Positions 1,578 to 16,705 of a DNA stretch of 20,611 nt are shown piece after piece. The stretch's first letter is position 1. The number at the start of each line of letters is the position of its first letter. The translations under genes and the position numbers were made by a program. The notes under the pieces are model-generated. The model saw only the letters and a program-made list of their open reading frames with translations, was not told the origin of the DNA and searched no databases. Source of the stretch: a virus; the IMG/VR virus record IMGVR_UViG_3300007541_004389, positions 1-20,611 of that record. One strand, 5' to 3'.

Positions 1578-1585
1578 TATAAATA
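1578..1585 (+). promoter_or_regulatory. T4-type late promoter TATAAATA
   Basis: An exact TATAAATA octamer sits two bases after the helicase stop and 35 bases before the ATG at 1620. In T4-like phages this sequence, recognised by gp55 sigma with gp33 and the gp45 clamp, is the whole late promoter. A 14-bp core (AATTATAAATAACA, 1575-1588) recurs exactly at 11592-11605, again just upstream of a gene for a putative head protein. It would drive the coupled genes from 1620. Confidence 0.8.
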
Positions 1586-1619
1586 ACAGAAATAAACCAT
1601 AACTTTCATCATAGGCGCC

Positions 1620-3119
1620 ATGAAAAAGTTTAAATCTCACATTTCTGAACAAAGAGTAAGGTTCTCGAAGCTTGATCTCGACTTCATGTCGTTTATGGGC
1701 GAGGATCTTGGTATCGGTCGTCCATCAGGAAACGAAGAAAAATTCGTCTTAGACGTTCTCTCTAAGATCGATGACCAGATCAGTTCTATTAAGACCGAGA
1801 TCGAAATTGATAACAGACCAGGAAAGTCGAACAGCAAAAAGCTAGCTATCTCTCAAGTGATGGCTGATAAAGATCGTACAAAGTTTGCTGCTTTAGCTAA
1901 TGAGATTATCGATAAAGAAGCCGATCTCGAAAGAGGTCCTGTTCCTGCTCCTCGTAAAGAAAAAGATTATTCTTTTAAACATAAAGACATGAGCCGTTAC
2001 GTCTACGTTAACTGTCGTCCTGATGGTAAGCGATCTGCAGCTGGTGATGATCCTAATGAGCTTATGGCTGCAGCACTTTGTTTAAAATCTTCACTTAAAA
2101 TTCCTACAAATTCAGACGAAATGGACGCTCTTATTAACGACGTTCGATTAGGTCTCACTAAAGTAAAAGGTTATAAGAAAGGACAAGTCGAAAGCTTATC
2201 CGGCGATTATCCTAACTTATGTCAAGCAGTATCAGCAGCTAAAGCTGTTCATGATGCTGGATACGGTGATGCTGATATGGTCTATCTTACAGGACAATCT
2301 TGGGACGATGATGTTAAACAATTCCAAATCACTAAGTATGGAATGGCTGACTTCAACTCATCAGACTTCATCGTAAGAAAAGGTAATAGGTTTCTAGGTG
2401 TTTCACTTAAGAAAAAGAAAAGACTGAACGAAGAAGATCCTACACTAATTAACAAGTCGTTTTCGACGATGTTCAAAGATAGAAAGTTCGACGACATCAT
2501 GAAACAGCTTGATCACAAGACTGGTTTCTTCTATCTTAAAGTGTTAGCTCGTGCTAAGCGTGAGGGCAAAGCAAGTCCTCAATTGCTAAAAGACATGGAA
2601 AAAACTCGTCCTAATACCGATAACTGGAAACAGTTTATTCAGCGAATCGACAACGCAGTTATCAATAGAGAACTTAAGTCTAGCCAATCTTTGTTTAAAG
2701 ACATGGCCAACATCATTCTTAAGAACAAGACTCTTATCGCTGATCAGCTCATGCAACTTATTTTCAAAGCAGATCTCAAAGACCTACAGAAAGTTAATTT
2801 TGACTTCGCACTCGTTACTGGTATCGGTGATTATGGTCCTCAGAAAGGTGTAGTTATCGAACAAGGTGAGTATAAAGACATCAATACAGTAACTACTAAA
2901 CTCGATGATCTCGCTAATACAGGTAAAGTTGATTTAAGATTTACTCCCGGAACAGTTCAAGCATTTCAGCCTGGAGCCACTGCAGCAGTTCTTAAGTTTG
3001 ATCTTGTTTTAGGTGACGTTCCTCTTTGCAACATCTCTCTAAGATACAAAGGCAACTTTAGATCAGCACCTTCGTTCCTAGCTACTATGACACCAGAATT
3101 CAAGGCTATTTACAAATGA
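1620..3119 (+). CDS. Putative packaged internal head protein, possible PD-(D/E)XK-like nuclease fold
   Basis: A 499-residue protein that starts MKKFKSHISEQ, matching the T4 capsid-targeting pattern (short basic/aromatic helix, then I-x-E). I do not recognise the family with confidence. Residues about 230-265 read GQSWDDDVKQF...NSSDFIV.....FLGVSLKKK: an acidic residue at the start of one strand and S-x-K on the next. Some restriction-enzyme-like folds use this D...(E/Q/S)-x-K spacing, so a PD-(D/E)XK-type nuclease is conceivable but not established. The C-terminal third alternates strands and ends with a hydrophobic segment. It is the first gene after the late promoter and overlaps the downstream kinase gene by four bases (ATGA), so the two are probably made together. 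Alternative: a purely structural head protein. Confidence 0.6.
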   Translation: MKKFKSHISEQRVRFSKLDLDFMSFMGEDLGIGRPSGNEEKFVLDVLSKIDDQISSIKTEIEIDNRPGKSNSKKLAISQVMADKDRTKFAALANEIIDKEADLERGPVPAPRKEKDYSFKHKDMSRYVYVNCRPDGKRSAAGDDPNELMAAALCLKSSLKIPTNSDEMDALINDVRLGLTKVKGYKKGQVESLSGDYPNLCQAVSAAKAVHDAGYGDADMVYLTGQSWDDDVKQFQITKYGMADFNSSDFIVRKGNRFLGVSLKKKKRLNEEDPTLINKSFSTMFKDRKFDDIMKQLDHKTGFFYLKVLARAKREGKASPQLLKDMEKTRPNTDNWKQFIQRIDNAVINRELKSSQSLFKDMANIILKNKTLIADQLMQLIFKADLKDLQKVNFDFALVTGIGDYGPQKGVVIEQGEYKDINTVTTKLDDLANTGKVDLRFTPGTVQAFQPGATAAVLKFDLVLGDVPLCNISLRYKGNFRSAPSFLATMTPEFKAIYK

Positions 3120-4159
3120 TAAGATTTAAGAGATTTTTAGAAGAAGGCATCAATGATCCTGCTATCTTTAAAGCAGTGTTTCTTGCCGGTGGCCCAGGAT
3201 CTGGTAAGTCGTTTGTTGTAGGCCAAACTGCGTTAACAGCCTTAGGATTCAAGCTCATTAATTCAGACGACGCGTTTGAAGTCGCTTTAAGCAAAGCCGG
3301 TTTAGAACCAGATCCAGAAACTTTATTTTCACCTAAGGGCCAAGAACTTCGTAGCAAAGCAAAAGCGTTAACCGGTAATAAGATGAAACGAGCTATCGAA
3401 GGTCGACTCGGTTTAGTAATCGATGGTACTGGAAAAGATTACGATAAAATCAAAAAACAGGTTGACATGTTGCGTGAAATAGGTTATAGTGTTATGATGT
3501 TATTCGTTAACACAGACATTGAAACCGCTCTGAATCGTAATAGTAAAAGAGATCGTTCTTTGCCTGATGACACAGTTAAGAAAATGTGGAATTCAGTACA
3601 AACAAACATTGGAAAGTTTCAAAACTTGTTTAGAGATCGTATGATTGTAGTAGATAATTCAGACGGTGCAAATTCTCAAAAAATCTTAAACTCAGTCTAT
3701 AAGCGTGTAGCTACTTGGTCTAAGACTTCGTCTGATAATCATATTGCTAAAAAATGGATTTCTCAACAAAAGAAAGAACGTGGTATTAAAGAAGATAAGC
3801 AATCCGTAAAACATCACCTTGGTATAGGTGTAAGTTTCAAACACCAGTCAAAAGATGCTCTTAAGCATTTTGACAGAGATAACGACGGTGATGTAGATGC
3901 AGATGATTTTAGTGGTAAGATTCCCGATGAAATTACTGGAACTGAGCCTAAAGATTTAACAAAGAGAATGCTGAAGAAATATGATCGTGAAAGAGCACAC
4001 ACTCGAAAAGGTGTTGCTTTTGAAGACGCAGAACTTAATGCTAGACAAGCTGATGAAGTACAAAGATTAAGAGACAGACAAAAGAGAGAGAAAGAGTCAT
4101 TGAAGCGTAGACACGATCAACAAGACGCACAAGCTAAAAGAGAGCGAGAAAGACAATAA
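3116..4159 (+). CDS. P-loop kinase (zeta-toxin/polynucleotide-kinase-like) with EF-hand-like loop and capsid-targeting-like N-terminus
   Basis: A 347-residue protein. It opens MIRFKRFLEEG, the same targeting-like peptide as its neighbours, followed at once by a P-loop kinase: VFLAGGPGSGKS at residues 21-32, INSDD near 51-55, and VIDGTGKDYDKI as the second core strand. A later NTDIETALNRN..RDRSLPDD segment resembles the LID region of zeta toxins and phage polynucleotide kinases. The kinase ends near residue 200. A calcium-loop-like D-R-D-N-D-G-D-V-D-A-D-D lies at 253-264. The last ~50 residues are an extremely charged Arg/Lys/Glu/Gln helix, probably a coiled coil. The substrate is unknown: RNA or DNA 5' ends, or a small molecule such as a UDP-sugar. 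Overlaps with both neighbours place it between the possible nuclease and the ligase-like gene. Confidence 0.75.
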   Translation: MIRFKRFLEEGINDPAIFKAVFLAGGPGSGKSFVVGQTALTALGFKLINSDDAFEVALSKAGLEPDPETLFSPKGQELRSKAKALTGNKMKRAIEGRLGLVIDGTGKDYDKIKKQVDMLREIGYSVMMLFVNTDIETALNRNSKRDRSLPDDTVKKMWNSVQTNIGKFQNLFRDRMIVVDNSDGANSQKILNSVYKRVATWSKTSSDNHIAKKWISQQKKERGIKEDKQSVKHHLGIGVSFKHQSKDALKHFDRDNDGDVDADDFSGKIPDEITGTEPKDLTKRMLKKYDRERAHTRKGVAFEDAELNARQADEVQRLRDRQKREKESLKRRHDQQDAQAKRERERQ

Positions 4160-5397
4160 TGAAAGGCTTTAAAGCATACATTACAGAAGCAGCAGGTAAG
4201 AACCTTCACATGACGCATTTAGAAGATGCTGTTATCGATGGAGGTGTTACTGGTACAAGGAATGTTTTTAATTATCTAAGAGCTCTCCGTGACATGCTAG
4301 CAGGCAACGCTTCTGCTCCTGTGAGCATCACAGTCAAGTGGGACGGTGCACCAGCTTTATTCGCTGGGGTTGATCCTTCTGATGGTAAGTTCTTTATTGC
4401 TAAGAAAGGAGTCTTTAATAAGAATCCAAAAATTTATAAAACAAATGCAGAAATTGATAATGATCTGAGTGGCGATCTAGCAGCTAAATTTAAAGTTGCT
4501 CTTAAGGAATTCGCCAAACTCGGGATCAGTGAAGGAGTGATACAAGGTGATTTCTTATTTACGAAAGACGATCTCAAAACAGAAACTATTGATGGAGAAT
4601 CGTATATTACTTTCCATCCTAACACGATTGTTTACGCGGTACCAACGAACAGCGACCTCGGTAAAACAATTGCAGGATCCGAAATCGGTGTGGTTTGGCA
4701 CACAACGTACCGAGGATCAGATTTTGAATCAATGTCAGCAAGTTTTGGAAAGAAGATTGTCCCAAGCCTCAACAAAACAAAAACAGTCTGGGCAGTAGAC
4801 GCAGTATTCGAAGACAAATCTGGTAACGCAACGTTTACTAAGAATGAAACTGACGAAATTACAAAACTTCTATCTGACGCAGGACGAATCTTTAGAACAG
4901 TAAGTCCTAAAGTGCTAAATGAATTAGGCACAAACACTGAGCTCAATGCTCGAGTGAATACATACATCAATTCAAAAGTGCGTGAAGGATCACGAATCGG
5001 CGATCCTCGCGGATTCATTATAGGTCTACAACAATACATTAAAGAATACTATCAGAAAGAAGCTGATAAAGTAAAACAACAAAAAAGTAAAGATATTAAG
5101 ATCGCTAAAGGCGAAGAACTATTAAAGTTTTTTGCTAGAACAAATATGAAACACATTTTAAATATCTTTACACTCTACAATATTCTAGTCGATTGCAAGT
5201 TGATGGTTATTGAGAAGCTTAATCATGTTGACGGACTCAAGACTTTCTTGAAAACAAATAAAGGATTCGAAGTAACTGGCCAAGAAGGTTTTGTTGCTAT
5301 TGACCATCTTGGAAAGAATTCGTTGAAACTCGTCGATCGCTTGCAGTTTAGTAAAGCAAACTTTAGTACAGAATACATTAAAGGGTGGCAGAAATAA
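4159..5397 (+). CDS. KWDG nucleotidyltransferase/ligase-like protein with capsid-targeting-like N-terminus
   Basis: A 412-residue protein that begins MKGFKAYITEA, the clearest targeting-like peptide in the window. Residues 58-63 read TVKWDGAP, the K-x-D-G motif I of covalent nucleotidyltransferases (DNA ligases, RNA ligases, capping enzymes), with K60 as the predicted AMP-accepting lysine. Later candidates follow in order: FFIAKKG near 78-84, EGVIQGDFLF at 125-134 (motif III/IIIa-like), EIGVVWHTTYRG at 175-186 (motif IV-like), and basic residues beyond 200. The C-terminal half is helical, and I see no recognisable OB domain. Relatives are known in marine T4-like phages, sometimes annotated as RNA ligase or as a DUF. 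The reaction is inferred from motif I. The start overlaps the kinase stop (TAATG), continuing the coupled trio. Confidence 0.72.
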   Translation: MKGFKAYITEAAGKNLHMTHLEDAVIDGGVTGTRNVFNYLRALRDMLAGNASAPVSITVKWDGAPALFAGVDPSDGKFFIAKKGVFNKNPKIYKTNAEIDNDLSGDLAAKFKVALKEFAKLGISEGVIQGDFLFTKDDLKTETIDGESYITFHPNTIVYAVPTNSDLGKTIAGSEIGVVWHTTYRGSDFESMSASFGKKIVPSLNKTKTVWAVDAVFEDKSGNATFTKNETDEITKLLSDAGRIFRTVSPKVLNELGTNTELNARVNTYINSKVREGSRIGDPRGFIIGLQQYIKEYYQKEADKVKQQKSKDIKIAKGEELLKFFARTNMKHILNIFTLYNILVDCKLMVIEKLNHVDGLKTFLKTNKGFEVTGQEGFVAIDHLGKNSLKLVDRLQFSKANFSTEYIKGWQK

Positions 5398-5630
5398 TGG
5401 CTTGGGTAGCAGTACCAGGATCAGATAGCATCTGGGAATACGACAACGCAGCAAACACGTCTTTAGCTGACGTGTACGCCGATGCTAACGGAACAGTAAC
5501 AGCTGGAGTTAGAGCGTTTACTCCTCCAGGTGGCAACACACAATACACTTATATACGATGCAGAAAAGCGGGTGAAACGATTGTCCGTGGTGAGTTAAAC
5601 AAAAACTATTACGATAATCTAATACCATAG
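5397..5630 (+). CDS. Small putative virion protein
   Basis: A 77-residue protein that starts MAWVAVPGSDSIWEYDN. I chose the ATG at 5397 over the in-frame GTG at 5385 because it overlaps the upstream TAA (TAATG), as other gene junctions here do, and because the protein then starts with a hydrophobic strand. The sequence is rich in Trp, Tyr, Thr and Gly, suggesting a small beta-rich fold, with the end LNKNYYDNLIP. It has no signal peptide, membrane segment or catalytic motif. Its position between packaged-type proteins and a larger beta-rich protein suggests a minor virion component. I do not recognise a named family. Confidence 0.7.
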   Translation: MAWVAVPGSDSIWEYDNAANTSLADVYADANGTVTAGVRAFTPPGGNTQYTYIRCRKAGETIVRGELNKNYYDNLIP

Positions 5631-5641
5631 GAATTAATTAA

Positions 5642-6475
5642 ATGGCAATTTGGAATAAGAACGATCAAGCATATTTAGATAATAATAAAACTTTATTTGA
5701 AGCATTTATGCTATCTGATAAAGATGGCAATATTATTAACTCATTTGGAATTGCTTCAAATATTCCTATTGCTGCAGGCGAATTAGACGGTTGGGCCGCA
5801 ATCCATAAATTTGGTGCGGTTCCTCTCATGTCAACAAACCCAGGCGTTGGTTCAGTTTGGGATAAGAGTGATACCTTTTATCCTTGGACTGCTTTTAATA
5901 CACCAGGGCCACTTACTATTTCAACGACAACATCTAACGGAACTTTATCTTCCTTAGATACTGGAATGACTGTAACGATTGTTGGGCTTGATGAAAATTT
6001 CGAAGCTACTCAAGAAACAATTACAATTACAGGTGATGCAGGTGCTGGTACTCAGAATTTTTCCCGCGTATATCGAGCATTCACTTCTCAAGATAATCAA
6101 ACTGAGGTGCGCGTATCTACAACAACGGGTACACCAACCGAAGTTCTTAGAATTAATATTCTAAAAGGCCAAACACTAATGGCTGTTTATACAGTTCCTG
6201 CTGGTAAAACAGCATACCTAACAAAAGGCACAGCTACTTGTGCTGCTAACGCTGACACAACAATTGATATGTTTGTTCGTTATGGCGGAGTAGGTGCATT
6301 TAGAATTGGTCATACTGCTGAGGTTGCTGGTGTTGGTGGACAATATACATATGAATTTGCTGTTCCAATTCAAATGCCTGAAAAGACAGACATTGATATT
6401 AGAGCAACAGTTCGTTCAAATAACGCAAGAGTAACAGCAGCATTTGATCTAATTTTGATTGACAATCCCGCTTAG
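5642..6475 (+). CDS. Putative beta-rich virion structural protein
   Basis: A 277-residue protein beginning MAIWNKNDQAYL, preceded by AGGA at a good distance. After a short N-terminal region it is mostly Thr/Ser/Gly/Val with alternating strands (TISTTTSNGTLSSLDTG..VTIVG, ETITITGDAGAGTQ), and the C-terminal half (GKTAYLTKGTATCAAN..IDMFVRYGG) reads like a jelly-roll or Ig-like domain. This fits a head-decoration, neck or fibre-associated protein in T4-like marine phages. It ends just before the sigma70 promoter that opens the accessory cassette, so it is the last gene of the late unit. The exact role cannot be assigned from sequence. Confidence 0.7.
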   Translation: MAIWNKNDQAYLDNNKTLFEAFMLSDKDGNIINSFGIASNIPIAAGELDGWAAIHKFGAVPLMSTNPGVGSVWDKSDTFYPWTAFNTPGPLTISTTTSNGTLSSLDTGMTVTIVGLDENFEATQETITITGDAGAGTQNFSRVYRAFTSQDNQTEVRVSTTTGTPTEVLRINILKGQTLMAVYTVPAGKTAYLTKGTATCAANADTTIDMFVRYGGVGAFRIGHTAEVAGVGGQYTYEFAVPIQMPEKTDIDIRATVRSNNARVTAAFDLILIDNPA

Positions 6476-6478
6476 TGG

Positions 6479-6507
6479 TTGACATTTACACCTAACTGAT
6501 ATATAAT
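6479..6507 (+). promoter_or_regulatory. Consensus sigma70 (host RNA polymerase) promoter
   Basis: TTGACA at 6479-6484 and TATAAT at 6502-6507 are separated by exactly 17 bp, a perfect match to the bacterial housekeeping promoter. It lies in the 40-bp gap between the structural gene ending at 6475 and the ATG at 6516. Transcription should start at about 6513-6515, almost on the ATG, so the first transcript would be leaderless or nearly so. It contrasts with the TATAAATA late promoters on both sides and implies early expression of the following cassette. Confidence 0.85.
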
Positions 6508-6515
6508 TATATGCT

Positions 6516-7151
6516 ATGGTTAAAGATGATTTTGAGACATACATTCGAGGAAAGCGAGTAGCTGTTGTAGGTAACGCGCTTTCTTTGTTTGATACTCAAT
6601 GTGGTAGTGAGATTGATGATCATGAAGTTGTAATTCGTATCAACACCCCCGCAATATTCTTCCAAGATCTCACACCTAGACACTCCCACGGAACTCGTAT
6701 TCATGTATGGGCTTTCTGGGATTATTTTCGTTATGCTACAAGTGACCATAGAGATAAACCAAGCAAACTTCTAGATACTTTCTGGAATACAGATAGATAT
6801 AACGTACTAGATTTAAACATGCTTAACAAAAAAGAAGCAGGTTTCAAATGGAACAAAAACGATTTCTTTTTTGAAATAAAACAAAACATGCTAAAAGAAA
6901 CTGGTAATCCTTCTGCGGGTTTATCCATTCTTTATTTACTTAATGAATGTGATCCTGCAGTAGTAAATGTTTATGGTTTTGATTTTAAACGCACACCTAC
7001 TTTTAGTAATTTTAATCAGGATGTTGATAGTAATAGATTTGATTCTTTCTACCGACACGACTACGCATTTGAAGAACAATATGCAAAACAAAAGTTCTTT
7101 ACACAAGAACGATTTAATTTAAAAGGAGAATATTATGGGACGTATTCGTGA
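6516..7151 (+). CDS. GT29 sialyltransferase-like glycosyltransferase
   Basis: A 211-residue protein with the ordered motifs of the GT29 (eukaryotic-type sialyltransferase) fold. The L motif is KRVAVVGNALSLF...IDDHEVVIRIN at residues 13-43, where VVGN and the [ED]ID-x-H-[DE]-V-V-I-R-[IM]-N core match the CMP-sialic-acid-binding segment. The S motif is GNPSAGLSILYLLNECDP..VNVYGFDF at 130-157. The VS motif H-x4-E is H181-E186 (HDYAFE). Family members transfer a sugar from a CMP-linked donor; the phage acceptor and donor are unknown. It is shorter than animal enzymes because it lacks the membrane stem. It starts the cassette, right after a sigma70 promoter, and its end overlaps the methyltransferase gene by 17 bases. 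Activity is inferred; the family match is strong by eye. Confidence 0.8.
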   Translation: MVKDDFETYIRGKRVAVVGNALSLFDTQCGSEIDDHEVVIRINTPAIFFQDLTPRHSHGTRIHVWAFWDYFRYATSDHRDKPSKLLDTFWNTDRYNVLDLNMLNKKEAGFKWNKNDFFFEIKQNMLKETGNPSAGLSILYLLNECDPAVVNVYGFDFKRTPTFSNFNQDVDSNRFDSFYRHDYAFEEQYAKQKFFTQERFNLKGEYYGTYS

Positions 7152-7701
7152 TAGAGGTCATGATGGCGGTAACATTTGGAGATGGCATACTATTGAAAAG
7201 TATGTTCGAAAAAACGGCTGGACAAAGGGCGCTGAACTAGGAGTGTGGTTAGGTGAAACATTTAAACATTTGGTCAAGACTTGTCATAATCTTCATCTTA
7301 TTGGTGTGGATCTTTATGCTCCCCAACCAGAAAACAACGGACCAGAAAAATGGACTTCTGGTGAAAATGGTCATGCATGGAATCACGAAGCATACTATCA
7401 AGACTTGGTAAGATTCTGTCAAGCATATCCAGGTCGAGCAGAAATCATTAAAGACTATACAACAGAAGCTGCAAAAGAAGTAGCTGATGAGAGTCTAGAT
7501 TTCGTATTCATTGATGCTGATCATGGATACGAAGGTTGTCTTCGCGATATTCAAGCATGGACTCCTAAAGTCCGTAAAGGTGGTATGATCATTGGCCACG
7601 ATATTCATTTCCCAACAGTTGAGCGAGCAGTCACCGAATACTTCGGTCCTAACTCGTGGAAAGTAGAAGACGATTTCTTGTGGTTAGTCGAGAAAACATA
7701 A
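7135..7701 (+). CDS. Class I SAM-dependent methyltransferase (Methyltransf_24-like)
   Basis: A 188-residue protein. Motif I is AELGVWLGET at residues 33-42 (SAM-binding glycine loop), LHLIGVDLY at 53-61 supplies the acidic residue for the ribose, and LDFVFIDADHGYEG at 121-134 is typical of the Methyltransf_24/O-methyltransferase group, followed by WTPKVRKGGMIIGHD. In sugar and antibiotic gene clusters this group often methylates hydroxyl groups of sugars. The ATG at 7135 is preceded by AAAAGGAGAAT, one of the best ribosome sites in the window, inside the end of the glycosyltransferase gene. Its stop overlaps the next small gene (TAATG). The substrate is unknown; O-methylation of a sugar fits the neighbours. 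Confidence 0.8.
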   Translation: MGRIRDRGHDGGNIWRWHTIEKYVRKNGWTKGAELGVWLGETFKHLVKTCHNLHLIGVDLYAPQPENNGPEKWTSGENGHAWNHEAYYQDLVRFCQAYPGRAEIIKDYTTEAAKEVADESLDFVFIDADHGYEGCLRDIQAWTPKVRKGGMIIGHDIHFPTVERAVTEYFGPNSWKVEDDFLWLVEKT

Positions 7702-7823
7702 TGAAGCGTTGCCAGTATTGTGGTAAAAGGTTCAGAGTCGTTCTTCTAAGCTCTGGTGTATTATGGTGTAGTTATGAGTGCAGTGAAAAGGATCTCAAAG
7801 GTGAAAAGAACGCGTGTAATTAA
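7701..7823 (+). CDS. 40-residue zinc-ribbon/knuckle-like protein
   Basis: A short open frame starts with the ATG overlapping the methyltransferase stop (TAATG) and encodes 40 residues. It carries C-x2-C at residues 4-7 (CQYC) and C-x3-C at 23-27 (CSYEC), a spacing suited to binding one zinc, with basic residues between. The TAATG coupling, the paired cysteines and the absence of any other gene covering 7702-7755 support it as real. Its end overlaps the start of the kinase gene. The role is unknown; it could be a small nucleic-acid- or protein-binding adaptor. Confidence 0.6.
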   Translation: MKRCQYCGKRFRVVLLSSGVLWCSYECSEKDLKGEKNACN

Positions 7824-8340
7824 TTTTTATGGTGGGCCCTGCTCAGGTAAAAGTACAGCTGCTGCAGGTTTATTTTACAAGATGAAGCTACTTAACTATA
7901 GTGTTGAGTTAACAGACGAGTTCGCTAAAGAATGTGTTTGGGAAGGAAATGTTCCTATGCTCAAAGACCAACTCTGGATCTTAGCTCATCAACATCGAAA
8001 GATTCTCAGACTAGTTGGTAAAGTAGATTATATTATCACTGATTCTCCAGTTCTACTTAGTCCCATCTATCGAGAAGTTTATGAAGGTCCTCTGTATAGC
8101 AATCTAATTGACAAGTTAGCTTTAGAATGTTATAATATGTACGACAATATTAACTTTATGTTAAGTCGCCCTCGTGATTTCGATCCTAATGGGCGAGCAC
8201 AAAACGAAGTCGAGAGTGTTCGCATTGATCTTGAGATCGTCGATCAATTCAAACGCTTAGACATACCCTATATACAAATTGAAGGATCTGATCACGCTTC
8301 TCTCGCTTACGACAAATTGGTGACTTTTTATGCACATTGA
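7801..8340 (+). CDS. P-loop nucleotide kinase-like ATPase (AAA_28-like)
   Basis: I favour the GTG at 7801, which has AAAAGGA eight to nine bases upstream and gives 179 residues with the P-loop close to the N-terminus. An ATG at 7774 (188 aa) and a GTG at 7756 are also in frame but lack a visible ribosome site. The core reads VINFYGGPCSGKST (residues 6-19), VDYIITDSPVL as the Walker B-like strand, and RDFDPNGRAQNEVESVRIDLEI as a LID-type region. This resembles AAA_28/NadR-kinase-like phage ATPases that phosphorylate small nucleotides or nucleosides. The substrate is unknown. Its end overlaps the hydroxymethyltransferase start by 11 bases. Confidence 0.75.
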   Translation: MKRTRVINFYGGPCSGKSTAAAGLFYKMKLLNYSVELTDEFAKECVWEGNVPMLKDQLWILAHQHRKILRLVGKVDYIITDSPVLLSPIYREVYEGPLYSNLIDKLALECYNMYDNINFMLSRPRDFDPNGRAQNEVESVRIDLEIVDQFKRLDIPYIQIEGSDHASLAYDKLVTFYAH

Positions 8341-9472
8341 AATTGACAAAATCTATCAGCGCGAACTCATGCGCCAACATAGTACTATAGAGTTTATTGC
8401 TAGTGAGAACTTTGCTTCTGACGCAGTAATGAAACTTTGTGGTTCTGAATTTACTAACAAATATGCTGAAGGCTATCCTGGCAAGCGTTATTACAACGGT
8501 TGCGAACACATGGACGAAATTGAAATCTTAGCGATTCAAAAGCTTAAAGACATCTATGGTTGTGCTTTTGCCAATGTTCAACCACACTCAGGTGCTAATG
8601 CTAACGCAGCAGTATTCCAAGCATTTCTAAAACCCGGCGATCGTATTCTTGGTATGGATCTTGCAAGTGGAGGACATCTTTCTCACGGTGCTCCTGTTAA
8701 CATGTCAGGTAAAAACTATCAAGCGTTTTCCTATGGTGTAGATAGTGTAGGTATGCTTGATTACGATCGTATTATGGATATTGCTAAAATCGTCAAACCT
8801 AAGATGATCATCGCGGGCGCTAGCGCGTACCCACGAAAAATCTATTGGGAAAAGTTTAGAGAGATCGCAGACGAAGTAGGTGCTTTGCTAATGGTTGATA
8901 TGGCACACTATTCTGGACTCATCGCTGGCGAAGCTTATCCTAATCCAGTTCCTTATGCAGATGTAGTTACTTCAACTACACACAAGACGCTCCGTGGTCC
9001 TCGTGGAGGAATCATTCTTTGGAATAACGACGAATACACTAAGAAAATTAACAGCGCAGTATTTCCTGGAACACAGGGTGGTCCTCTCATGAATATCATT
9101 GCAGCAAAAGCACAGTGTTTCATGGAAGCCGACACTCCTGAATTTTACGATTATGCAGATCGTGTAATTAAGAATGCTAAAGCGATGTGTGAAGTATTCA
9201 GTAAGTCTAATACGATTAAAGTACTTACGGACGGAACTGATTCGCACATCATTCTACTCGATCTAAGTGAATCAAAATACAGTGGTCGTCAAGCAGCTGA
9301 TATGCTCGAAGAAAATGGAATCACCGTAAATAAGAATGGTGTACCCAATGATCCTCGTCCCTTTATGGAAACTTCTGGTATCCGTATCGGAACTGCTGCT
9401 GAAACAACTCGCGGCCGCGACGAAAAATGGTTTAGAAGACAAGCAGAAAGAATATTGGAAATCATAGGATGA
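8330..9472 (+). CDS. glyA: Serine hydroxymethyltransferase
   Basis: A 380-residue PLP enzyme that interconverts serine plus tetrahydrofolate with glycine plus 5,10-methylene-tetrahydrofolate. Signature stretches are IEFIASENF (20-28), TNKYAEGYPGKRYYNGCE (42-59), NVQPHSGANAN (82-92), GGHLSHGAPVNMSGK (114-128), VDMAHYSGLIAG (189-200, with the PLP-ring aspartate D190), the PLP-binding TTHKTLRGPRGG with K219, and TSGIRIGT (348-355) with the substrate-carboxylate arginine R352. Active-site residues look complete. Compared with E. coli GlyA as I recall it, it is shorter at the start and lacks about 30 C-terminal residues, ending right after the last core helix. It probably feeds one-carbon units to thymidylate or modified-base synthesis, or makes glycine. 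It overlaps both neighbours, so it belongs to the cassette. Confidence 0.95.
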   Translation: MHIEIDKIYQRELMRQHSTIEFIASENFASDAVMKLCGSEFTNKYAEGYPGKRYYNGCEHMDEIEILAIQKLKDIYGCAFANVQPHSGANANAAVFQAFLKPGDRILGMDLASGGHLSHGAPVNMSGKNYQAFSYGVDSVGMLDYDRIMDIAKIVKPKMIIAGASAYPRKIYWEKFREIADEVGALLMVDMAHYSGLIAGEAYPNPVPYADVVTSTTHKTLRGPRGGIILWNNDEYTKKINSAVFPGTQGGPLMNIIAAKAQCFMEADTPEFYDYADRVIKNAKAMCEVFSKSNTIKVLTDGTDSHIILLDLSESKYSGRQAADMLEENGITVNKNGVPNDPRPFMETSGIRIGTAAETTRGRDEKWFRRQAERILEIIG

Positions 9473-10131
9473 AAACAAGTATCGAAAAGAAACTCAGCCA
9501 CATTTGGATCGGGCCAAAGCCAGCTCCACTAAAGTGGATGTACACTTGGCGCGATAAACATCCCGATTGGGAGTATAGTATTTTTACCGATACTATGCTT
9601 AGGACTCGTCGATGGAAGAACCAACACTTGATCGAAGAGTATTATAATAGACGCTTATGGCCTGGTGTTTCTGACCTTATTCGATACGAACTTCTTTATG
9701 AAAATGGTGGATTCATTGCTGAAGCAGATATGATCTGTTTAGAGAATACTGATGAACTATTCCAAAGTCCTGAAGATCACGCTTATACTTGCTTTGAGAA
9801 CGAAAAAGGAAGACCTAATTTTGTTCAACCTATTTTTGCTTGCAATCCTGAAAACAAATTCATAGCTATGGTAATAGATGAACTTCATAAACTCAGACGA
9901 GGCGATCTTCATCCACAACCTTTCATGTCAACGGGTAATGCTTTTCTAGCTAAGCACGTGCCTCAATGGCGAGACAAACTTACTATATGGCCGTCACACT
10001 ATTTCATTCCTCAGTTCTATGTAGCTGGAGCGAAGAGATACGATGGGCCAGATAAAGTGTATGCAGATCATAAGTGGGGTTCTACCGGAATGCACGCTCA
10101 CTGCTTACAATATTCAGACGGGGTTCTATAA
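9469..10131 (+). CDS. GT32-like glycosyltransferase (DXD-sugar family)
   Basis: A 220-residue protein. The N-terminus KKLSHIWIGPKPAPLKW (residues 7-23) is the typical first strand of the Gly_transf_sug/GT32 group. It is followed by W-x-x-x-x-P-D-W-E-Y and then SDLIRYELLYENGGFIAEADM at 68-88, where the group normally carries a D-x-D for metal and sugar-nucleotide binding. Here the motif is E-A-D (85-87), a conservative change that should still bind a metal but deserves checking. Related proteins transfer mannose, glucose or galactose to lipids or polysaccharides. Its ATG overlaps the upstream TGA (ATGA), and its stop overlaps the sulfotransferase start, so translation of this cassette section is probably coupled. 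Confidence 0.8.
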   Translation: MKTSIEKKLSHIWIGPKPAPLKWMYTWRDKHPDWEYSIFTDTMLRTRRWKNQHLIEEYYNRRLWPGVSDLIRYELLYENGGFIAEADMICLENTDELFQSPEDHAYTCFENEKGRPNFVQPIFACNPENKFIAMVIDELHKLRRGDLHPQPFMSTGNAFLAKHVPQWRDKLTIWPSHYFIPQFYVAGAKRYDGPDKVYADHKWGSTGMHAHCLQYSDGVL

Positions 10132-10790
10132 TGTACTTATCACACAAATATAAATTTCTATTCTTACGTACGCCAAAGACTGCAAGCAGCAGTCTTTCGG
10201 ATTTTTTTATTCGCAACATCAATGATCCTGAAGCGATCTATACTGAAGTTGAAGATTCAAACTTACCAGGAACACTTGACGAGAGTATCGTATCTCGTTA
10301 TCGTCCCTATGCTTTCTATCATTTTACTCTCGATCAATTAATTCATGAAGGAGTAATTACAGAAGAGCAAGCTCGTGAATACGATGTTTTTGCGCTACTG
10401 AGAGATCCTATTGATAGAGCAAAAAGTTTTTACTACTTCTATAAGAAATTTAGATCACCAGGAACTTCTCCTTCTCTTGAAGAATATAAGAGATGGACTA
10501 ACAAGGGAGTGTTTAATAACGATCCTAACTCCGCAATAGTGCAAACAGACCTATTAAAAATCAAAGGTGAATCGGTAGGTCGATACTGGTTATATGAGAA
10601 TCTTGAAAAAGAATTATCTAATTTTATGTTCCACAGAAGATTGAGAATCGATCATCCTCTACCTCGGCATAAAACAGATACACGAAAAGTTAAAAAGAAC
10701 GAGATTGAATTTGATGAAACTTCTTTAAACGATTTACGAGAGCACTTTCAAAACGATTTCATACTGTACGAGCAACTTAAGAAAAAGTAA
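10131..10790 (+). CDS. PAPS-dependent sulfotransferase-like protein
   Basis: A 219-residue protein starting at the ATG that overlaps the previous stop (TAATG). An in-frame upstream start at 10074 would lie inside the glycosyltransferase and is less likely. The opening FLFLRTPKTASSSL (residues 10-22) is the 5'-phosphosulfate loop of Sulfotransfer_2-type enzymes, and FALLRDPIDRAKSFYYFY at 87-104 is the 3'-phosphate-binding region with R91 and S99. His64 (YAFYHF) is a candidate catalytic residue. Family members add sulfate from PAPS to sugars, peptides or lipids. With three glycosyltransferases and a methyltransferase in the same unit, a carbohydrate acceptor is the simplest inference. A terminator-like hairpin lies inside its first 70 bases. 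Confidence 0.82.
   Translation: MYLSHKYKFLFLRTPKTASSSLSDFFIRNINDPEAIYTEVEDSNLPGTLDESIVSRYRPYAFYHFTLDQLIHEGVITEEQAREYDVFALLRDPIDRAKSFYYFYKKFRSPGTSPSLEEYKRWTNKGVFNNDPNSAIVQTDLLKIKGESVGRYWLYENLEKELSNFMFHRRLRIDHPLPRHKTDTRKVKKNEIEFDETSLNDLREHFQNDFILYEQLKKK
10175..10208 (+). other. Terminator-like hairpin inside the sulfotransferase gene
   Basis: A perfect 9-bp stem, AAAGACTGC (10175-10183) paired with GCAGTCTTT (10189-10197), closes a 5-base loop (AAGCA). CGGA and then seven T residues (10202-10208) follow. This resembles an intrinsic terminator except for the 4-base spacer before the T-run. The same bases encode the PAPS-binding loop, so coding constraint could explain it. Function is unproven. 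Confidence 0.4.
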
Positions 10791-10912: not shown

Positions 10913-10913
10913 A

Positions 10914-11641: not shown

Positions 11642-13729
11642 ATGAGCCAAATATTTCAAGAATTCTTGAATTCCGTTAAATCGTGTGATATTTCGTTGCC
11701 TGTATCTTTCGTAGAGGCACCAGACGACGATGACGCAGCGCTTGAAATCGATCCAAGTGATGACGATAATCCGGAAGTCGAAAAACCAAAACCAAAGAAA
11801 AAAGTCACTAAAAAGAAGAAGTGGAAACCAAGTTTCAATCCAGACAAATATGTTGATGTGAAACCTGAATTAAGAGAAGCGCCAAAGAGTGACACTGCAG
11901 TCATTACATTTGGGCGAATGAATCCAATCACAACTGGCCATAATGTACTTGTTAACGCAGTGGTTGCAACCGCTCTTAAGTCCGGCGGAATACCACTCGT
12001 TTACTTATCTCAAAGTACTGATCCTAAAAAGAATCCTCTAACTTATGACCAAAAAATCAGATTCGCAAAGCGCGCGTTTGGTGCTAAGTTAATTGTTAAA
12101 AGCAAGTCTAGAACTATTCTCGAAGTTGCAACAGAGCTTCAGAATAGATTTAAGAAACTCATTGTAGTCGTAGGCTCAGATAGAGTCTCTGAATTTGATA
12201 ATCTACTCAACAAATATAATGGTAATCTCTACAATTATGATGAGATCAAAGTAGTATCTGCAGGTGAGCGCGATCCTGATTCAGACGATGTTTCAGGTAT
12301 GTCAGCTTCTAAAGCAAGAGGATTTGCAAAAGATGGTGACATGGAGTCTTTCAAGAAAAGCTTACCTCCTAAACTTCAATCTCAAGCGGCTTCTGTTTAT
12401 AACGCAGTTAGAGCTGGCATGGGAATTAAAGAAGCAGTCGAACAACTCGAACTAGAAGAAGCTCTAACACGTCAACAAAGACTCAAGCGCAAGATGATTA
12501 TGCGCAGAATTAAGTCTAAGATTCAAATGGGTCGTCGTAGAGCTATGAGACGTAGAGCGACCACAGCTGTGGTTCAAAAACGCGCTAAGAAAATGGTTCT
12601 TCGTATGCTCAAGCAAAGATTTGCTAAGAGTAATCGATATGCAGATCTTCCATATAGTGCAAGACAGCGTATCGACGATCGTATTGCGCGTATTCCTAAA
12701 GCTCGTCTCAAGATTCTAATGAGACGCTACATTCCGAAAATTAAGAAAATGGAGAGAGATAGATTTGCAGCTAAGGTTGCAAAAGCAACAGCTCCAGCAG
12801 CTTATAAGCCAAAACCAGTCTCTATTGTTAAAGCTAGAGTTCCTGAGAGTGTAAGCATAAACTTCAACAGCATCTTCGAAAAGTTTATTTCAGAAAGAGT
12901 TGAAAAACCAGAATCACTTCCAAACACAAAAAGTAATCTCGAATTAGCAGTTGAAATGGCAAACACCCTCGGCGCTAATATGAATTACGCTATTAAAGAA
13001 ATTGATAAGATTAAGAAAGGATTGTCTCGACATCCTGAAGTAAAGAATGCGCTAAGATTAACTAATGCACGCTTTAACGAAGAAGTATATCAGCAATACA
13101 CCTTTGAGAAAAGACTCGAAGAAGGTGCATCATATCACGCAGGACTTTCAAAGTCAACCGCAGCTAAGCGCAAAGCACAATTCAATAAACAAGCAAAGAT
13201 GGACGATGATAATCCTGCAGCCTATAAGCCAGCTCCTGGTGATGCTACTGCAGAGACAAAGCCTAGCAAACATACTTCAAAGTTTAAAAAGATATTCGGC
13301 GAAACTAATTACGAGAAAGCTCACCTCAAGAAGCCACACATGCTTTTAGATAAGAAAGGTGCAGTCGTAATTGATAAGCGTTTTCGTATGTTTAAGAAAG
13401 CAAAAGAAGTCGATATGGTATTAGCTCAATACAATAAAGAAGAAAAGATTCAAGAGATTAATGATCTAATAGAATCTGTTGAGTTTGTTTTCGAGAGCAA
13501 TCCTAAAAAATCATTAAGAGACAAAGCCGAAAAGACAGGGATTTCTTATTCCATTCTTAAAAAAGTTTTTGATCGTGGTGTCGCAGCATGGCGCACAGGT
13601 CATAGACCAGGTACAACTCCTACACAATGGGGATTAGCTAGAGTTAATTCATTTGCAACTGGTGGAAAAACACAAAAAACAACAGACAAAGATCTTTGGG
13701 ATCAACACAGAGGAAGTAAAAGTGATTAA
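11642..13729 (+). CDS. Nucleotidyltransferase (HxGH-type) fused to a basic domain and a DUF5824-like C-terminus; putative head protein
   Basis: A 695-residue multidomain protein. Residues 28-45 are Asp-rich and 49-62 Lys-rich linkers. Residues 85-230 form a cytidylyltransferase-like domain: TAVITFGRMNPITTGH (85-100) carries the T/H-x-G-H motif and GMSASKARG (219-227) the I-S-x-T-x-x-R-type motif of NMN/pantetheine adenylyltransferases. At 266-274 VEQLELEEA looks like a prohead-protease site. Residues 275-375 are extremely Arg/Lys/Met-rich (e.g. KMIMRRIKSKIQMGRRRAMR), suited to binding DNA. Residues 431-481 carry a module shared with the gene at 17820. The last ~75 residues (GISYSILKK...AAWRTGHRPGTTPTQWGLARV) match a DUF5824-type phage domain. 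The N-terminus MSQIFQEFLNS only weakly resembles the targeting peptide. The nucleotide product is unknown. Confidence 0.8.
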   Translation: MSQIFQEFLNSVKSCDISLPVSFVEAPDDDDAALEIDPSDDDNPEVEKPKPKKKVTKKKKWKPSFNPDKYVDVKPELREAPKSDTAVITFGRMNPITTGHNVLVNAVVATALKSGGIPLVYLSQSTDPKKNPLTYDQKIRFAKRAFGAKLIVKSKSRTILEVATELQNRFKKLIVVVGSDRVSEFDNLLNKYNGNLYNYDEIKVVSAGERDPDSDDVSGMSASKARGFAKDGDMESFKKSLPPKLQSQAASVYNAVRAGMGIKEAVEQLELEEALTRQQRLKRKMIMRRIKSKIQMGRRRAMRRRATTAVVQKRAKKMVLRMLKQRFAKSNRYADLPYSARQRIDDRIARIPKARLKILMRRYIPKIKKMERDRFAAKVAKATAPAAYKPKPVSIVKARVPESVSINFNSIFEKFISERVEKPESLPNTKSNLELAVEMANTLGANMNYAIKEIDKIKKGLSRHPEVKNALRLTNARFNEEVYQQYTFEKRLEEGASYHAGLSKSTAAKRKAQFNKQAKMDDDNPAAYKPAPGDATAETKPSKHTSKFKKIFGETNYEKAHLKKPHMLLDKKGAVVIDKRFRMFKKAKEVDMVLAQYNKEEKIQEINDLIESVEFVFESNPKKSLRDKAEKTGISYSILKKVFDRGVAAWRTGHRPGTTPTQWGLARVNSFATGGKTQKTTDKDLWDQHRGSKSD

Positions 13730-14834
13730 GTTCAAGGACCTAAAAGAAGCAGGTGGAGCAGGAGACTGGGGAACTGACAAAGCTCGTAAGAAGCTTCAAC
13801 AAGACACTCCAGGCCAAGGCATTACTGATATGGGCGTAAAAAATAAACAGCGTAAAGAATCAGTTGAACTTAGCGAAAAGCTAAAAGTGTCTGATGGTCT
13901 AGGTGCTTGGATCGACGATTTCATGAAGTCAGATGCTCCTCAGTTTAAAAATGCAGATGATAAGAAGCGCCGTGACATGGCGATCGCAGCATTTACTTCA
14001 GCCGGTGGTAAACTCGATGAGTCAGTTATATCCATTGAAGAAGGAGCTGTTGCTCTTTCCACAGTTGAAAAAGAAATCAGATCAAACGGTGGAAAGATTG
14101 TTAAGAAAGACGACAGATCAATTACATTTACTTTAAACGGTGCTCAAAGAAAAGTTCCAGTAGATAGAGGACATGTACTAGATACTTATTACATGCAACT
14201 TCAGAAAATGTTCGAAGAAGTAGAATACGTTAGTGAAGATGGACAATGGGGCGTTAAGAACGTATATTTGAAATACACACCAGATGTTCTCAAATTAAAG
14301 AAGATCAAAATTCAAGATACAATTAGCAACCTTAAGAGACAACACAGCAGCTTAACTGCACTAGGTGGTAAGAATCCACGAGCTGAAGAGATCAAAGAGT
14401 TAGAAGGAAAACTTCGCATGATCGATCAAGCAATGAGAACTAAGAAAGAATCGCTTGATCTTGATGAAGCAGACACCTACGCAATCTACAAGAAAGGTAA
14501 AGTATTCGATACTTTCAGATCCAAAGAAGATGCGCATGACTCTCTAGATAGTATGGGTCTTTCTGCGATCAGCAAAAAAGATTATAGCGTAAGAAAACTT
14601 CCTGCTAATTATAAAAGCAACTGGTCGATGAAAGAAGAAGTCGAGCTTGATGAAGGAACTCTAGCTGCGAGTGACGGGAGTGTTGTTGATGCGCTACTCA
14701 CCGCAGTAAAAGATAAATTGATGAAAGATTTAAGTAGTGGAAATGTTGATGATGCTAACGAAATTGCAAAGATGGTCAAAATGACTATAGAAAAAGATTA
14801 TAAACGCAAAGGATTTTCGAGGCTAAAAAGATGA
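13722..14834 (+). CDS. Putative packaged head protein with several prohead-protease-like sites
   Basis: I place the start at the GTG at 13722, which follows AGAGGAAG by about eight bases and gives MIKFKDLKEAG, the same targeting-like peptide as other genes here; a longer frame from 13653 would run inside the upstream gene. The 370-residue product is charged and helical. It contains DGLGAWIDDFMKSDAPQF...RRDMAIAAF, a module I associate with structural proteins of T4-like marine phages. Candidate cleavage motifs are ESVELSEK, VISIEEG, SLDLDEA and EEVELDEG, spaced so that cutting would release several fragments. No enzyme motif is visible. It overlaps the upstream gene by eight bases and the downstream gene by four. 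Confidence 0.72.
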   Translation: MIKFKDLKEAGGAGDWGTDKARKKLQQDTPGQGITDMGVKNKQRKESVELSEKLKVSDGLGAWIDDFMKSDAPQFKNADDKKRRDMAIAAFTSAGGKLDESVISIEEGAVALSTVEKEIRSNGGKIVKKDDRSITFTLNGAQRKVPVDRGHVLDTYYMQLQKMFEEVEYVSEDGQWGVKNVYLKYTPDVLKLKKIKIQDTISNLKRQHSSLTALGGKNPRAEEIKELEGKLRMIDQAMRTKKESLDLDEADTYAIYKKGKVFDTFRSKEDAHDSLDSMGLSAISKKDYSVRKLPANYKSNWSMKEEVELDEGTLAASDGSVVDALLTAVKDKLMKDLSSGNVDDANEIAKMVKMTIEKDYKRKGFSRLKR

Positions 14835-15442
14835 AAAAATTTATAAACTTTATAGAAGAAAAGGGTGAAGCTGTTGACGCAACAGACATGCCAAAACTCC
14901 AACAATTAATTAGACTTGGTCTCGCTGATAGTAAAGACCTAGCGCTAATCAAGAGAACCATTATGAAAATGGATTCTGGCGAAGAGCTAACAATGAAAGA
15001 GAAGAAGATGGCAGAAAAGCTAGCCAAGATTCTTCTTGACAAAGTAATTGGAAACAAAGTAATTTACAACTTAGTTCGCCAAGGTCTTGGAAAAGAGAGT
15101 GTGCAAGAAGATCTCGATGAAAACGCAAGACGTGATGCTATGGCTGCTATCCGCAGAGATAAAGATTTTAGAGACAAAGATGATGAAGACGACGTAGCTA
15201 CAGATGCTGATCGAGCTGCTGCTAAGAAGAATCCTATCATGCAATTGAGAAAGATTTCTGATATCGAAGGTGGAGAGATGGAGTTCACCAATCGCAAGAA
15301 AATGAAAGTTTCTAAAGTAGATGCTGACAAGATTCTAAGAGCTTTTGGTACTATTCAAAAGTCTTTAGACAAGCAAAAGTTTCAAACTCTAATCGGACGT
15401 AGTCCAGAAGATTTCAAGAAAATACTTAAGATTCTAAGATAA
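14831..15442 (+). CDS. Putative packaged internal head protein (charged, helical)
   Basis: A 203-residue protein that opens MKKFINFIEEKG, a near-ideal match to the T4 capsid-targeting pattern, with I-E-E as the expected cleavage point. The rest is very charged and helical. It includes the Lys-rich stretch MKEKKMAEKLAKILLDK, EDLDENARRDAMAAIRRDKDFRDKDDEDD (split here by a possible L-D-E site), and a C-terminal helix FKKILKILR. No catalytic motif is visible. Composition resembles small basic/acidic core proteins packed with DNA. It overlaps the upstream stop (ATGA) and the downstream start (TAATG), so translation is probably coupled across the set. Confidence 0.7.
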   Translation: MKKFINFIEEKGEAVDATDMPKLQQLIRLGLADSKDLALIKRTIMKMDSGEELTMKEKKMAEKLAKILLDKVIGNKVIYNLVRQGLGKESVQEDLDENARRDAMAAIRRDKDFRDKDDEDDVATDADRAAAKKNPIMQLRKISDIEGGEMEFTNRKKMKVSKVDADKILRAFGTIQKSLDKQKFQTLIGRSPEDFKKILKILR

Positions 15443-15672
15443 TGAAAAGCTTTAAAGAGTTTATTTCAGAAGGTTCTGAAACTTGGGAAGCGGGTTTCAA
15501 GCGCAGAGTCGTAAAGACAACTAAACCTGAGCACAAAGAAAAAGGTTACAACTGGCGCATCAAAGGAAAAGATCGTCCAGAGATAAGCATTAAATTATAT
15601 AAAGACAAACCATCATTTGATGAATTTAAAAAACAAATGAAGCGTGTTGCAGGACACGAATTCGGAGGATAA
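15442..15672 (+). CDS. Small putative packaged internal head protein
   Basis: A 76-residue protein beginning MKSFKEFISEG, where cleavage after I-S-E would leave about 66 residues. The remainder is basic (FKRRVVKTTKPEHKEKGYNWR, KQMKRVAG) with a short predicted sheet. The size and charge fit the class of small internal proteins that T4 packages with its genome. The start overlaps the upstream stop. I do not recognise a named family. Confidence 0.68.
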   Translation: MKSFKEFISEGSETWEAGFKRRVVKTTKPEHKEKGYNWRIKGKDRPEISIKLYKDKPSFDEFKKQMKRVAGHEFGG

Positions 15673-15677
15673 GAAAA

Positions 15678-16301
15678 ATGTTAAGATTTAAGCGATTTGT
15701 TGAACAGACAGAACTAGTCGAGTCGCATTTCGAAGTAGGCGATAAAGTTAAGTGTGTTCATAGCGGCAAGGAAGGCGTCGTCACTAAAGTTGATCCTTCT
15801 GAAAAAGGTAAGTACTACACTGTTAAGCGCGATGATGGTGAAGTCATGCAGTACGCACCAGACGACCTCGAGGCTTTGAAAGAAGAAGTCGAACTTGATG
15901 AAGCAGGTTATAAAGTGCCGAAGAACTATGCTTCTATGATGGCGAAGAAACGTAGAAAGGCTGGCACTTCTGAGTTTGGCACGCACCCAGATAAGAAAAA
16001 AGAGGTAAAGAAAGAAGAAATCGAGCTTGAAGAAGGACGTAACGAAGCACTTAAAGCCCTCGAAGGACTCGCTAAGCGCGGAGGAATGGATAAAGCTGAT
16101 TTTCAAAAAGCTCATGATCTATATAAAGCCAACAAACTCACCGATCTCAGAAAACATATCTACGGACTAGATACAGATCCTAGTGAAGCTATCGCAGACG
16201 TTATTAACAGACATGATTCAAAAGCATTTAACAGCATGTATCCAAAAGCTAAAGCTGGTGATTACCTTCGTATGATTATATTAAATCACGGTGGAAAATA
16301 A
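15678..16301 (+). CDS. Putative packaged protein with KOW/SH3-like domain and two protease-like sites
   Basis: A 207-residue protein opening MLRFKRFVEQTE. Residues 19-70 (FEVGDKVKCVHSGKEGVVTKV...YYTVKRDDGEVMQYAPDDLEAL) read as a small SH3-like barrel of the KOW type, with the G-D-x-V start and the central G-x-V turn; such barrels often bind nucleic acid or protein. KEEVELDEAG then marks the domain end, and a short basic linker (MMAKKRRKAGTSEFGTH) follows before KKEEIELEEG. The last ~90 residues are helical (ALEGLAKRGGMDKADFQKAHDLYK). Cleavage at both motifs would produce a barrel domain, a basic peptide and a helical domain. It lies five bases after the previous stop. Confidence 0.7.
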   Translation: MLRFKRFVEQTELVESHFEVGDKVKCVHSGKEGVVTKVDPSEKGKYYTVKRDDGEVMQYAPDDLEALKEEVELDEAGYKVPKNYASMMAKKRRKAGTSEFGTHPDKKKEVKKEEIELEEGRNEALKALEGLAKRGGMDKADFQKAHDLYKANKLTDLRKHIYGLDTDPSEAIADVINRHDSKAFNSMYPKAKAGDYLRMIILNHGGK

Positions 16302-16303
16302 AA

Positions 16304-16705
16304 TTGAAAGGCTTTAAGAACTTTTACAACGAAGAAAGGTTCGGCATTTACGAGGGGGTTACAGTCCCTCTCGAACAGCCTATGATCGAGTTCGATAGTT
16401 CTATGGGACTCTTGGCTGCAGAAAAAGAACCAGAACTAAATTCACCAAAGCGAAGCTCTGGTGATAAGAAATACGTTGTTTATGTTCGTAATCCAAAAAC
16501 AAGAAACATCAAGAAGATCGAGTTCGGAGATGAAAAAGGTGGACTCACTTCAAAGATTAACGATAGAGACGCTGCAAAGAGTTTTGCTGCAAGACACCAA
16601 TGTGATACTAAGAACGATAAGATGACTCCAGGATACTGGGCGTGTCGTTTACCTAAGTATGCTAAGTCTTTAGGATTGCAGGGCGGTGGCGATTATTTTT
16701 GGTAA
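16304..16705 (+). CDS. Putative packaged head protein with conserved Cys-containing phage domain
   Basis: A 133-residue protein with a TTG start at 16304; the N-terminus then reads MKGFKNFYNEE, again the targeting-like peptide, and the upstream GGTGGA can serve as ribosome site. The 13 bases TGAAAGGCTTTAA at the start also occur at the start of the ligase-like gene at 4159. After a variable linker, residues about 55-125 (KKYVVYVRNPKTRNIKKIEFGD...FAARHQCDT..DKMTPGYWACRLP) match a small domain I recall from T4-like marine phages, with C-D-T and W-A-C cysteines that may pair or bind metal. The function of that domain is unknown to me. Confidence 0.68.
   Translation: MKGFKNFYNEERFGIYEGVTVPLEQPMIEFDSSMGLLAAEKEPELNSPKRSSGDKKYVVYVRNPKTRNIKKIEFGDEKGGLTSKINDRDAAKSFAARHQCDTKNDKMTPGYWACRLPKYAKSLGLQGGGDYFW

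Follow-up and report, generated by a model that had tools for sequence, protein, structure and literature searches.

A three-gene block and its N-terminal leaders

The 20,611 nucleotide stretch analysed here (IMG/VR virus record IMGVR_UViG_3300007541_004389, positions 1 to 20,611; "the window" below) carries, downstream of a DnaB/gp41-like helicase gene at 128-1576, three plus-strand genes which overlap start-to-stop and encode a protein termed open reading frame 1 (ORF1), a P-loop kinase and a protein of the family DUF6267 that contains a KWDG motif (Table 1). All three products begin with a ten-residue leader of the type M-x-x-F-K-x-x-[IL]-x-E, and a T4-type late promoter box precedes the block. 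The box is not rare by itself, with three copies across the window against 1.7 expected, and it is notable because of its position, as 22 of 67 distinct related flanks have this box behind the helicase stop, compared with 2.2% of random control windows. A first-pass annotation of this DNA had described three overlapping genes under one late promoter, with a D...S-x-K segment in ORF1, GGPGSGKS in the kinase and KWDG in the third protein; the gene coordinates, the exact box and all three motifs were found as described.

Table 1. Positions of the features discussed in the text
Feature	Position	Strand	Details
T4-type late promoter box TATAAATA	1578..1585	+	exact match, just 3' of DnaB-like helicase gene
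ORF1, 499 aa	1620..3119	+	phrog_3060; putative PD-(D/E)XK-like nuclease; leader MKKFKSHISE
ORF1, predicted capsid-targeting leader	1620..1649	+	18.2 bits
ORF1, D249...S262-L-K264 segment	2364..2411	+	D249, S262, L263, K264 invariant
P-loop kinase, 347 aa	3116..4159	+	Zeta_toxin/AAA_33 superfamily; leader MIRFKRFLEE
Kinase, predicted capsid-targeting leader	3116..3145	+	17.0 bits
Kinase, Walker A GGPGSGKS	3188..3211	+	residues 25-32
DUF6267 protein, 412 aa	4159..5397	+	putative divergent ligase-type nucleotidyltransferase; leader MKGFKAYITE
DUF6267, predicted capsid-targeting leader	4159..4188	+	15.8 bits; [IL]xE prohead-protease-type site ITE
DUF6267, ligase motif I	4336..4347	+	K60-W-D-G
DUF6267, ligase motif III	4543..4551	+	Q129-G-D
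DUF6267, ligase motif IV	5284..5295	+	E376-G-F-V
DUF6267, ligase motif V	5326..5334	+	K390-L-V
Cytidyltransferase-DUF5824 protein	11642..13729	+	weak leader MSQIFQEFLNSV
Leader-bearing protein MKKFINFIEE	14831..15442	+	leader matrix
Leader-bearing protein MKSFKEFISE	15442..15672	+	leader matrix
Leader-like protein MLRFKRFVEQ	15678..16301	+	sequence inspection
Leader-bearing protein MKGFKNFYNE	16304..16705	+	leader matrix

Leaders were scored with a position matrix trained only on the first ten residues of DUF6267 homologues. Scores of at least 8 bits were reached by 6 of the 29 window genes, compared with 0 in a null made of internal positions. Applied to T4, the same matrix placed IPIII, IPII and IPI at ranks 1, 2 and 3 of 2044 start codons; these are internal head proteins whose capsid-targeting sequence recruits them and which gp21 then trims (PMC3012670, PMC5694885). 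Of 46 DUF6267 leaders, 45 contain a prohead-protease-type site, [IL]xE, which has a frequency of 4% at internal positions; T4 Alt is cleaved at ITE-6 and LTE-619 (PMC5694885). A gp21-family protease (PF03420) is encoded in all seven large relatives, the window contig being only 20.6 kb long. The resemblance to T4 IPI, IPII, IPIII and Alt extends over the leader pattern, the [IL]xE site, the late promoter, the T4-type prohead protease of the relatives and the arrangement of a conserved leader ahead of variable cargo. However, the T4 cargo consists of small inhibitors and an ADP-ribosyltransferase, whereas the enzymes encoded here are ligase-like, kinase and nuclease-like, and the T4 enzymes Pnkp (pseT), Rnl1 (rnlA) and Rnl2 have no such leader. 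Predicted models are of very low confidence over residues 1-17 of DUF6267 and 1-29 of ORF1, as would be expected if the leader were a detachable segment.

Published virion proteomes offer a second comparison. A scan of the cyanophage S-CREM2 (3104 start codons; one length variant of the leader allowed) ranked highest the cytidylyltransferase ORF154, the APH/ChoK-like kinase ORF14, the S-adenosylmethionine (SAM) hydrolase ORF6 and the hypothetical protein ORF13, all four of which are listed as detected in the virion by mass spectrometry (PMC10665884, Table 3); by the same table, rank 5 was an internal start within a virion-detected gene and rank 6 the virion protein ORF136. The leader-bearing cytidylyltransferase is also a published virion protein of S-SM1 and S-SZBM1. 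Such virion-associated enzymes (the cytidylyltransferase/NMNAT, SAM hydrolase and APH/ChoK kinase of S-CREM2) are like the window proteins in bearing the leader and in belonging to T4-like marine phages, and a cytidyltransferase sits in the gene cluster of the window too. They differ in that the leader goes unmentioned where those papers present their virion proteins and that contamination or high expression is left possible there; in their remarks on such enzymes, the S-CREM2 authors were undecided between cargo and contamination (PMC10665884).

The recovery of the T4 internal proteins and of the S-CREM2 virion proteins by one matrix upholds the first-pass proposal of packaging leaders, and on this sequence evidence the leader is very probably a packaging signal. 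By extension from those phages, the three window proteins themselves are probably located in the phage head. The ten-residue leader appears to be a sequence-readable flag for head-carried enzymes of marine T4-like phages, and would explain the puzzling virion enzymes published for cyanophages.

The DUF6267 protein and the kinase

The KWDG protein is a full-length member of DUF6267 (PF19782, E 2.6e-107; phrog_455; cyanophage T4-GC 71), a family annotated as of unknown function which occurs in 461 phage records, mostly of cyanophages, and in at least 593 environmental contigs. K60, D62 and G63 are invariant and W61 is nearly so among 46 homologues, whilst across 115 DUF6267 sequences K60-W-D-G, Q129-G-D, E376-G-x-V379 and K390 are conserved to at least 97%. 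These residues correspond, in order, to ligase motifs I, III, IV and V, and in the predicted model they lie at or adjoin predicted strands (56-60, 127-135, 377-381 and 388-391), with a helical insertion at approximately 228-354. The EG-x-V ... K-x-[VK] pair is closely alike in T4 Rnl1 (EGYVAVMKDGSHFKIK compared with EGFVAIDHLGKNSLKLV); differences from Rnl1 and Rnl2 are the large insertion and the lack of a significant profile match to either. Among the 565 ORFs of five T4-like phages the motif pattern matched seven, namely four members of DUF6267 and three RNA ligases, two of which are T4 Rnl1 and Rnl2, and shuffled DUF6267 sequences matched at 0.18%; since the pattern was composed after the family had been seen, this counts as support and not as a blind test.

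A further line of evidence comes from gene replacement. Six contigs carry a leader-bearing RNA ligase (PF09414 RNA_ligase, Pfam E 6.8e-9), and no DUF6267 was present in the five of these that were scanned for it. In one related locus (L455) this ligase lies exactly in the position which DUF6267 occupies in a syntenic locus (L190), the flanking genes being 91% (helicase), 92% (a 461-aa gene) and 79% (cytidyltransferase) identical, and such replacement in place suggests that DUF6267 and the RNA ligase are functionally equivalent. The ligase of L455 is followed by a leader-bearing 297-aa protein in which the Pol-beta signature LLGS...SGDIDI...LDFMLV was seen on inspection, Pfam having failed to report it; phage RNA ligases are known to be accompanied by Pol-beta enzymes (RlaP; PMC7824862). 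A second such ligase (L317) was the only one to score above all 336 decoys (30.2 against 28.7) when aligned to the DUF6267 profile, with the leader, THIE and KxDG brought into register, although this is modest, as the E value of 0.0025 applies to a single comparison and the shared leader raises the score. L455 also encodes, at 5575-7881, a 768-aa protein that fuses a cytidyltransferase, a P-loop kinase and DUF5824 and whose start resembles a leader.

Taken together, the motifs and the substitution make it probable that DUF6267 is a ligase-type nucleotidyltransferase, as the first-pass annotation had proposed for the KWDG protein, in spite of the absence of significant profile or fold homology. 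The family gains a testable activity.

The kinase belongs to the Zeta_toxin/AAA_33 group in Pfam. Its profile, when searched against solved structures, matched best T4 Pnkp (E 0.0012) and zeta toxin (E 0.002), and the Walker A motif with K31, the catalytic aspartate D51 and the lid arginines (R145) are conserved among its homologues. Arg38, which contacts the acceptor, is essential in T4 Pnkp; the equivalent position is Phe54 in the window kinase, and a Pfam search for a C-terminal HAD phosphatase domain found none. Of the first-pass comparison with T4 Pnkp, therefore, membership of the Pnkp/zeta class stands, and its matches extend beyond small-molecule kinases, whilst Arg38 and the phosphatase domain set the two enzymes apart.

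Proposed packaging of the enzymes, possible end repair and alternative explanations

We suggest that the late operon at 1578-5397 encodes head cargo. The T4-type leader, M-x-x-F-K-x-[FY]-[IL]-x-E in its fuller form, would recruit each product to the prohead core, a gp21-type prohead protease would cut the leader off, and the mature enzyme would exit with the DNA at injection. DUF6267 would then act as a divergent covalent nucleotidyltransferase in which K60 takes adenosine monophosphate and motifs III-V transfer it, the helical insertion lying between motifs IIIa and IV, and its likeliest job would be the sealing of broken RNA (tRNA or similar) or of nicked DNA as infection begins. The kinase may process 5' ends in preparation, or be a cargo enzyme independent of the others, and ORF1 may be a nuclease-like partner drawn from a rapidly exchanged slot. 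Taken as a whole, this packaged operon of a DUF6267 ligase, a kinase and a nuclease-like partner is an explanation to which we give an even chance; that the three proteins cooperate as one end-repair set is more tentative, being evenly balanced at best.

It is conceivable, with the balance of judgement somewhat against it, that an injected, pre-made repair kit, comprised of DUF6267 and a Pnkp/zeta-class kinase and, in relatives, of an RNA ligase, a Pol-beta nucleotidyltransferase and a polynucleotide-phosphatase-like HAD protein, reverses anticodon- or DNA-cleaving host defences before phage expression begins, and that the leader is a general predictor of injected effectors. If true, repair enzymes arriving with the genome would at once counteract nucleases which cut tRNA or DNA at infection. 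Within the literature searched, no paper on packaged RNA ligases or on DUF6267 was found.

Several observations weigh against the packaged-operon explanation, besides the lack of Arg38 in the kinase and the after-the-fact composition of the motif pattern. HHalign comparison of DUF6267 with ligase profiles and the 336 decoy proteins was not significant and the ligases did not stand out; the fold search gave no match with E<=0.001, DNA and RNA ligases making up 7 of the top 38 PDB matches, none of them significant; and a sequence search against solved structures found no match. The motifs around K60 fit the nucleotidyltransferase which the first-pass annotation expected there, but none of the fold matches is significant. 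A conventional DNA or RNA ligase is encoded as well in the majority of the large relatives whose DUF6267 bears the leader. Of 138 distinct DUF6267 loci, only 19 have the kinase within 6.5 kb, so that a fixed kinase-ligase operon, as implied by the first-pass pairing of the two, was rejected as a general rule. As regards packaging, neither the S-SZBM1 nor the S-CREM2 virion list includes the leaderless DUF6267 of cyanophages, and two proteins of S-SZBM1 with strong leaders are not among its 30 listed virion proteins. The latter, gp084 and gp085 (NC_070839 122311-123125), are small proteins with the two strongest leaders of that phage.

The end-repair set has a serious competitor, which we rate as possible but short of evenly balanced, in a general effector island in which unrelated anti-host enzymes are co-packaged, the kinase being a zeta-like enzyme that acts on small molecules or modified bases and ORF1 a nuclease in its own right, so that only delivery is shared. 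A census of 357 related loci yielded 343 distinct leader proteins, which fell into 25 BLAST-unrelated clusters including, besides the RNA ligase and several families of the many D..[SE]xK proteins, an HAD phosphatase, a hydrolase of the HD type and a ParB-like protein. This diversity would be expected of such an island, as would the exchange of the gene upstream of DUF6267 among many unrelated families, the few loci in which the kinase adjoins DUF6267, the non-conservation of Arg38 of Pnkp, and the Pfam matches of the kinase, Zeta_toxin being best in 15 of 15 members with a weak match to 5-hmdU DNA kinase in six. It sits less easily with the presence of DUF6267 in 14 of 16 large kinase contigs, with a 170 kb relative (G001) in which, amongst 161 genes scored, leaders above 10 bits occur only on the kinase and DUF6267, and with the joint occurrence of RNA ligase, Pol-beta nucleotidyltransferase and cytidyltransferase-kinase fusion in L455. 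The leader-bearing HAD phosphatase of the census, a relative of the polynucleotide kinase/phosphatase family which matches phrog_415, "polynucleotide kinase", speaks for the packaged operon.

A rather unlikely alternative is that DUF6267 was originally the DNA ligase of T4-like marine phages, in place of the gp30 missing from cyanophages, and served replication or recombination, the leader being a later and perhaps minor addition in one lineage. The gene for DUF6267 comes immediately behind the gp41/MazG replication block, and S-CREM2, S-SZBM1, P-HM2, HTVC008M and Melnitz all encode it, whilst searches of these phages for PF01068, PF09414 and PF01653, and for an NAD-dependent ligase, found none. 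The copy of Methylophilales phage Melnitz EXVC044M (gene 16) bears the leader. Cyanomyoviruses have been reviewed as lacking gp30 homologues, with undetected distant ones possible (PMC2984593). Moreover, in the cyanophages examined (P-HM2, S-SZBM1, S-SM1 and S-CREM2) DUF6267 has no leader and starts at the domain, in contrast to the window lineage; the leader may thus be a module gained by, or lost from, an older enzyme. However, a conventional DNA ligase is also encoded by most phages whose DUF6267 bears the leader, the gene found in its place is an RNA ligase and not a DNA ligase, and late promoter and leader are both conserved in the window lineage. DUF6267 is a candidate for the gp30 role, and hence for the ligase apparently missing, in cyanomyoviruses.

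In ORF1 (phrog_3060, function unknown in the database), D249, S262, L263 and K264 are invariant in 21 homologues. Immediately upstream of DUF6267 lies a hypervariable slot (152 loci; for example L005, L016, L142 and L151) filled by many unrelated families, a large number of which begin with leaders and contain a D..[SE]xK segment that is conserved. Judged by conservation within each family, a simple regular expression being too blunt for proof, the segment is prominent in six of eight aligned multi-member families of this slot, that of ORF1 included, and the match in a seventh is only a kinase P-loop; a Pfam scan of the upstream families gave no nuclease match. As the segment recurs in unrelated families of the same slot, the nuclease reading is favoured, and a PD-(D/E)XK-like nuclease is plausible for ORF1 and somewhat ahead of a Pol-beta-type nucleotidyltransferase, which would add nucleotides to RNA ends before ligation, as proposed for RlaP enzymes, and which we consider improbable. 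The latter would account for weak fold matches that are dominated by Pol-beta nucleotidyltransferases (TUT7, DncV, OAS and pol beta; DmTailor with probability 1.00) and that include RelA/SpoT and CCA-type enzymes in a viral library, for the likeness of TGQSW...SSDFIV...NFDFALV to the L455 signature, and for the presence of that leader-bearing protein beside an RNA ligase. Against it, the second catalytic acid of the Pol-beta DxD is Ile251 in ORF1, no PDB fold match reached E<=0.001, and the invariant S262-L-K264 is a better fit to PD-(D/E)XK. As regards the nuclease reading, none of the fold matches listed was of restriction-nuclease type. The first-pass suggestion of a PD-(D/E)XK fold hence retains its conserved D...S-x-K segment, whilst the fold matches lean weakly towards Pol-beta.

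Very improbable is the last alternative, that the leader serves assembly or solubility and is unlinked to packaging, which would suit the two S-SZBM1 absentees and a search that found no published virion proteome for a phage with a leader-bearing DUF6267, but not the gp21-family protease of the relatives, the T4 ranking, the [IL]xE enrichment, the S-CREM2 matches or the leader-bearing cytidyltransferase in virions of three cyanophages.

Neighbouring genes and related loci

Scans of the window for Rfam families and tRNAs gave no match. A second P-loop kinase-like gene, leaderless, lies at 7756-8340, and at 8330-9472 there is a gene which on inspection is serine hydroxymethyltransferase-like, here within phage DNA; between leader genes, two genes resembling glycosyltransferases and one resembling a sulfotransferase were recognised in the same way at 9469-11603. 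In a related locus (L033, 4845-6001), the leader-bearing HAD phosphatase (phrog_415) and a leader-bearing HD-domain hydrolase immediately precede DUF6267. Another (L126) encodes a 137-aa leader protein, MKSFIEFLNEAKTVF, which had no Pfam or PHROG match and by eye resembles a small ADP-ribosyltransferase, which would be a parallel to T4 Alt.

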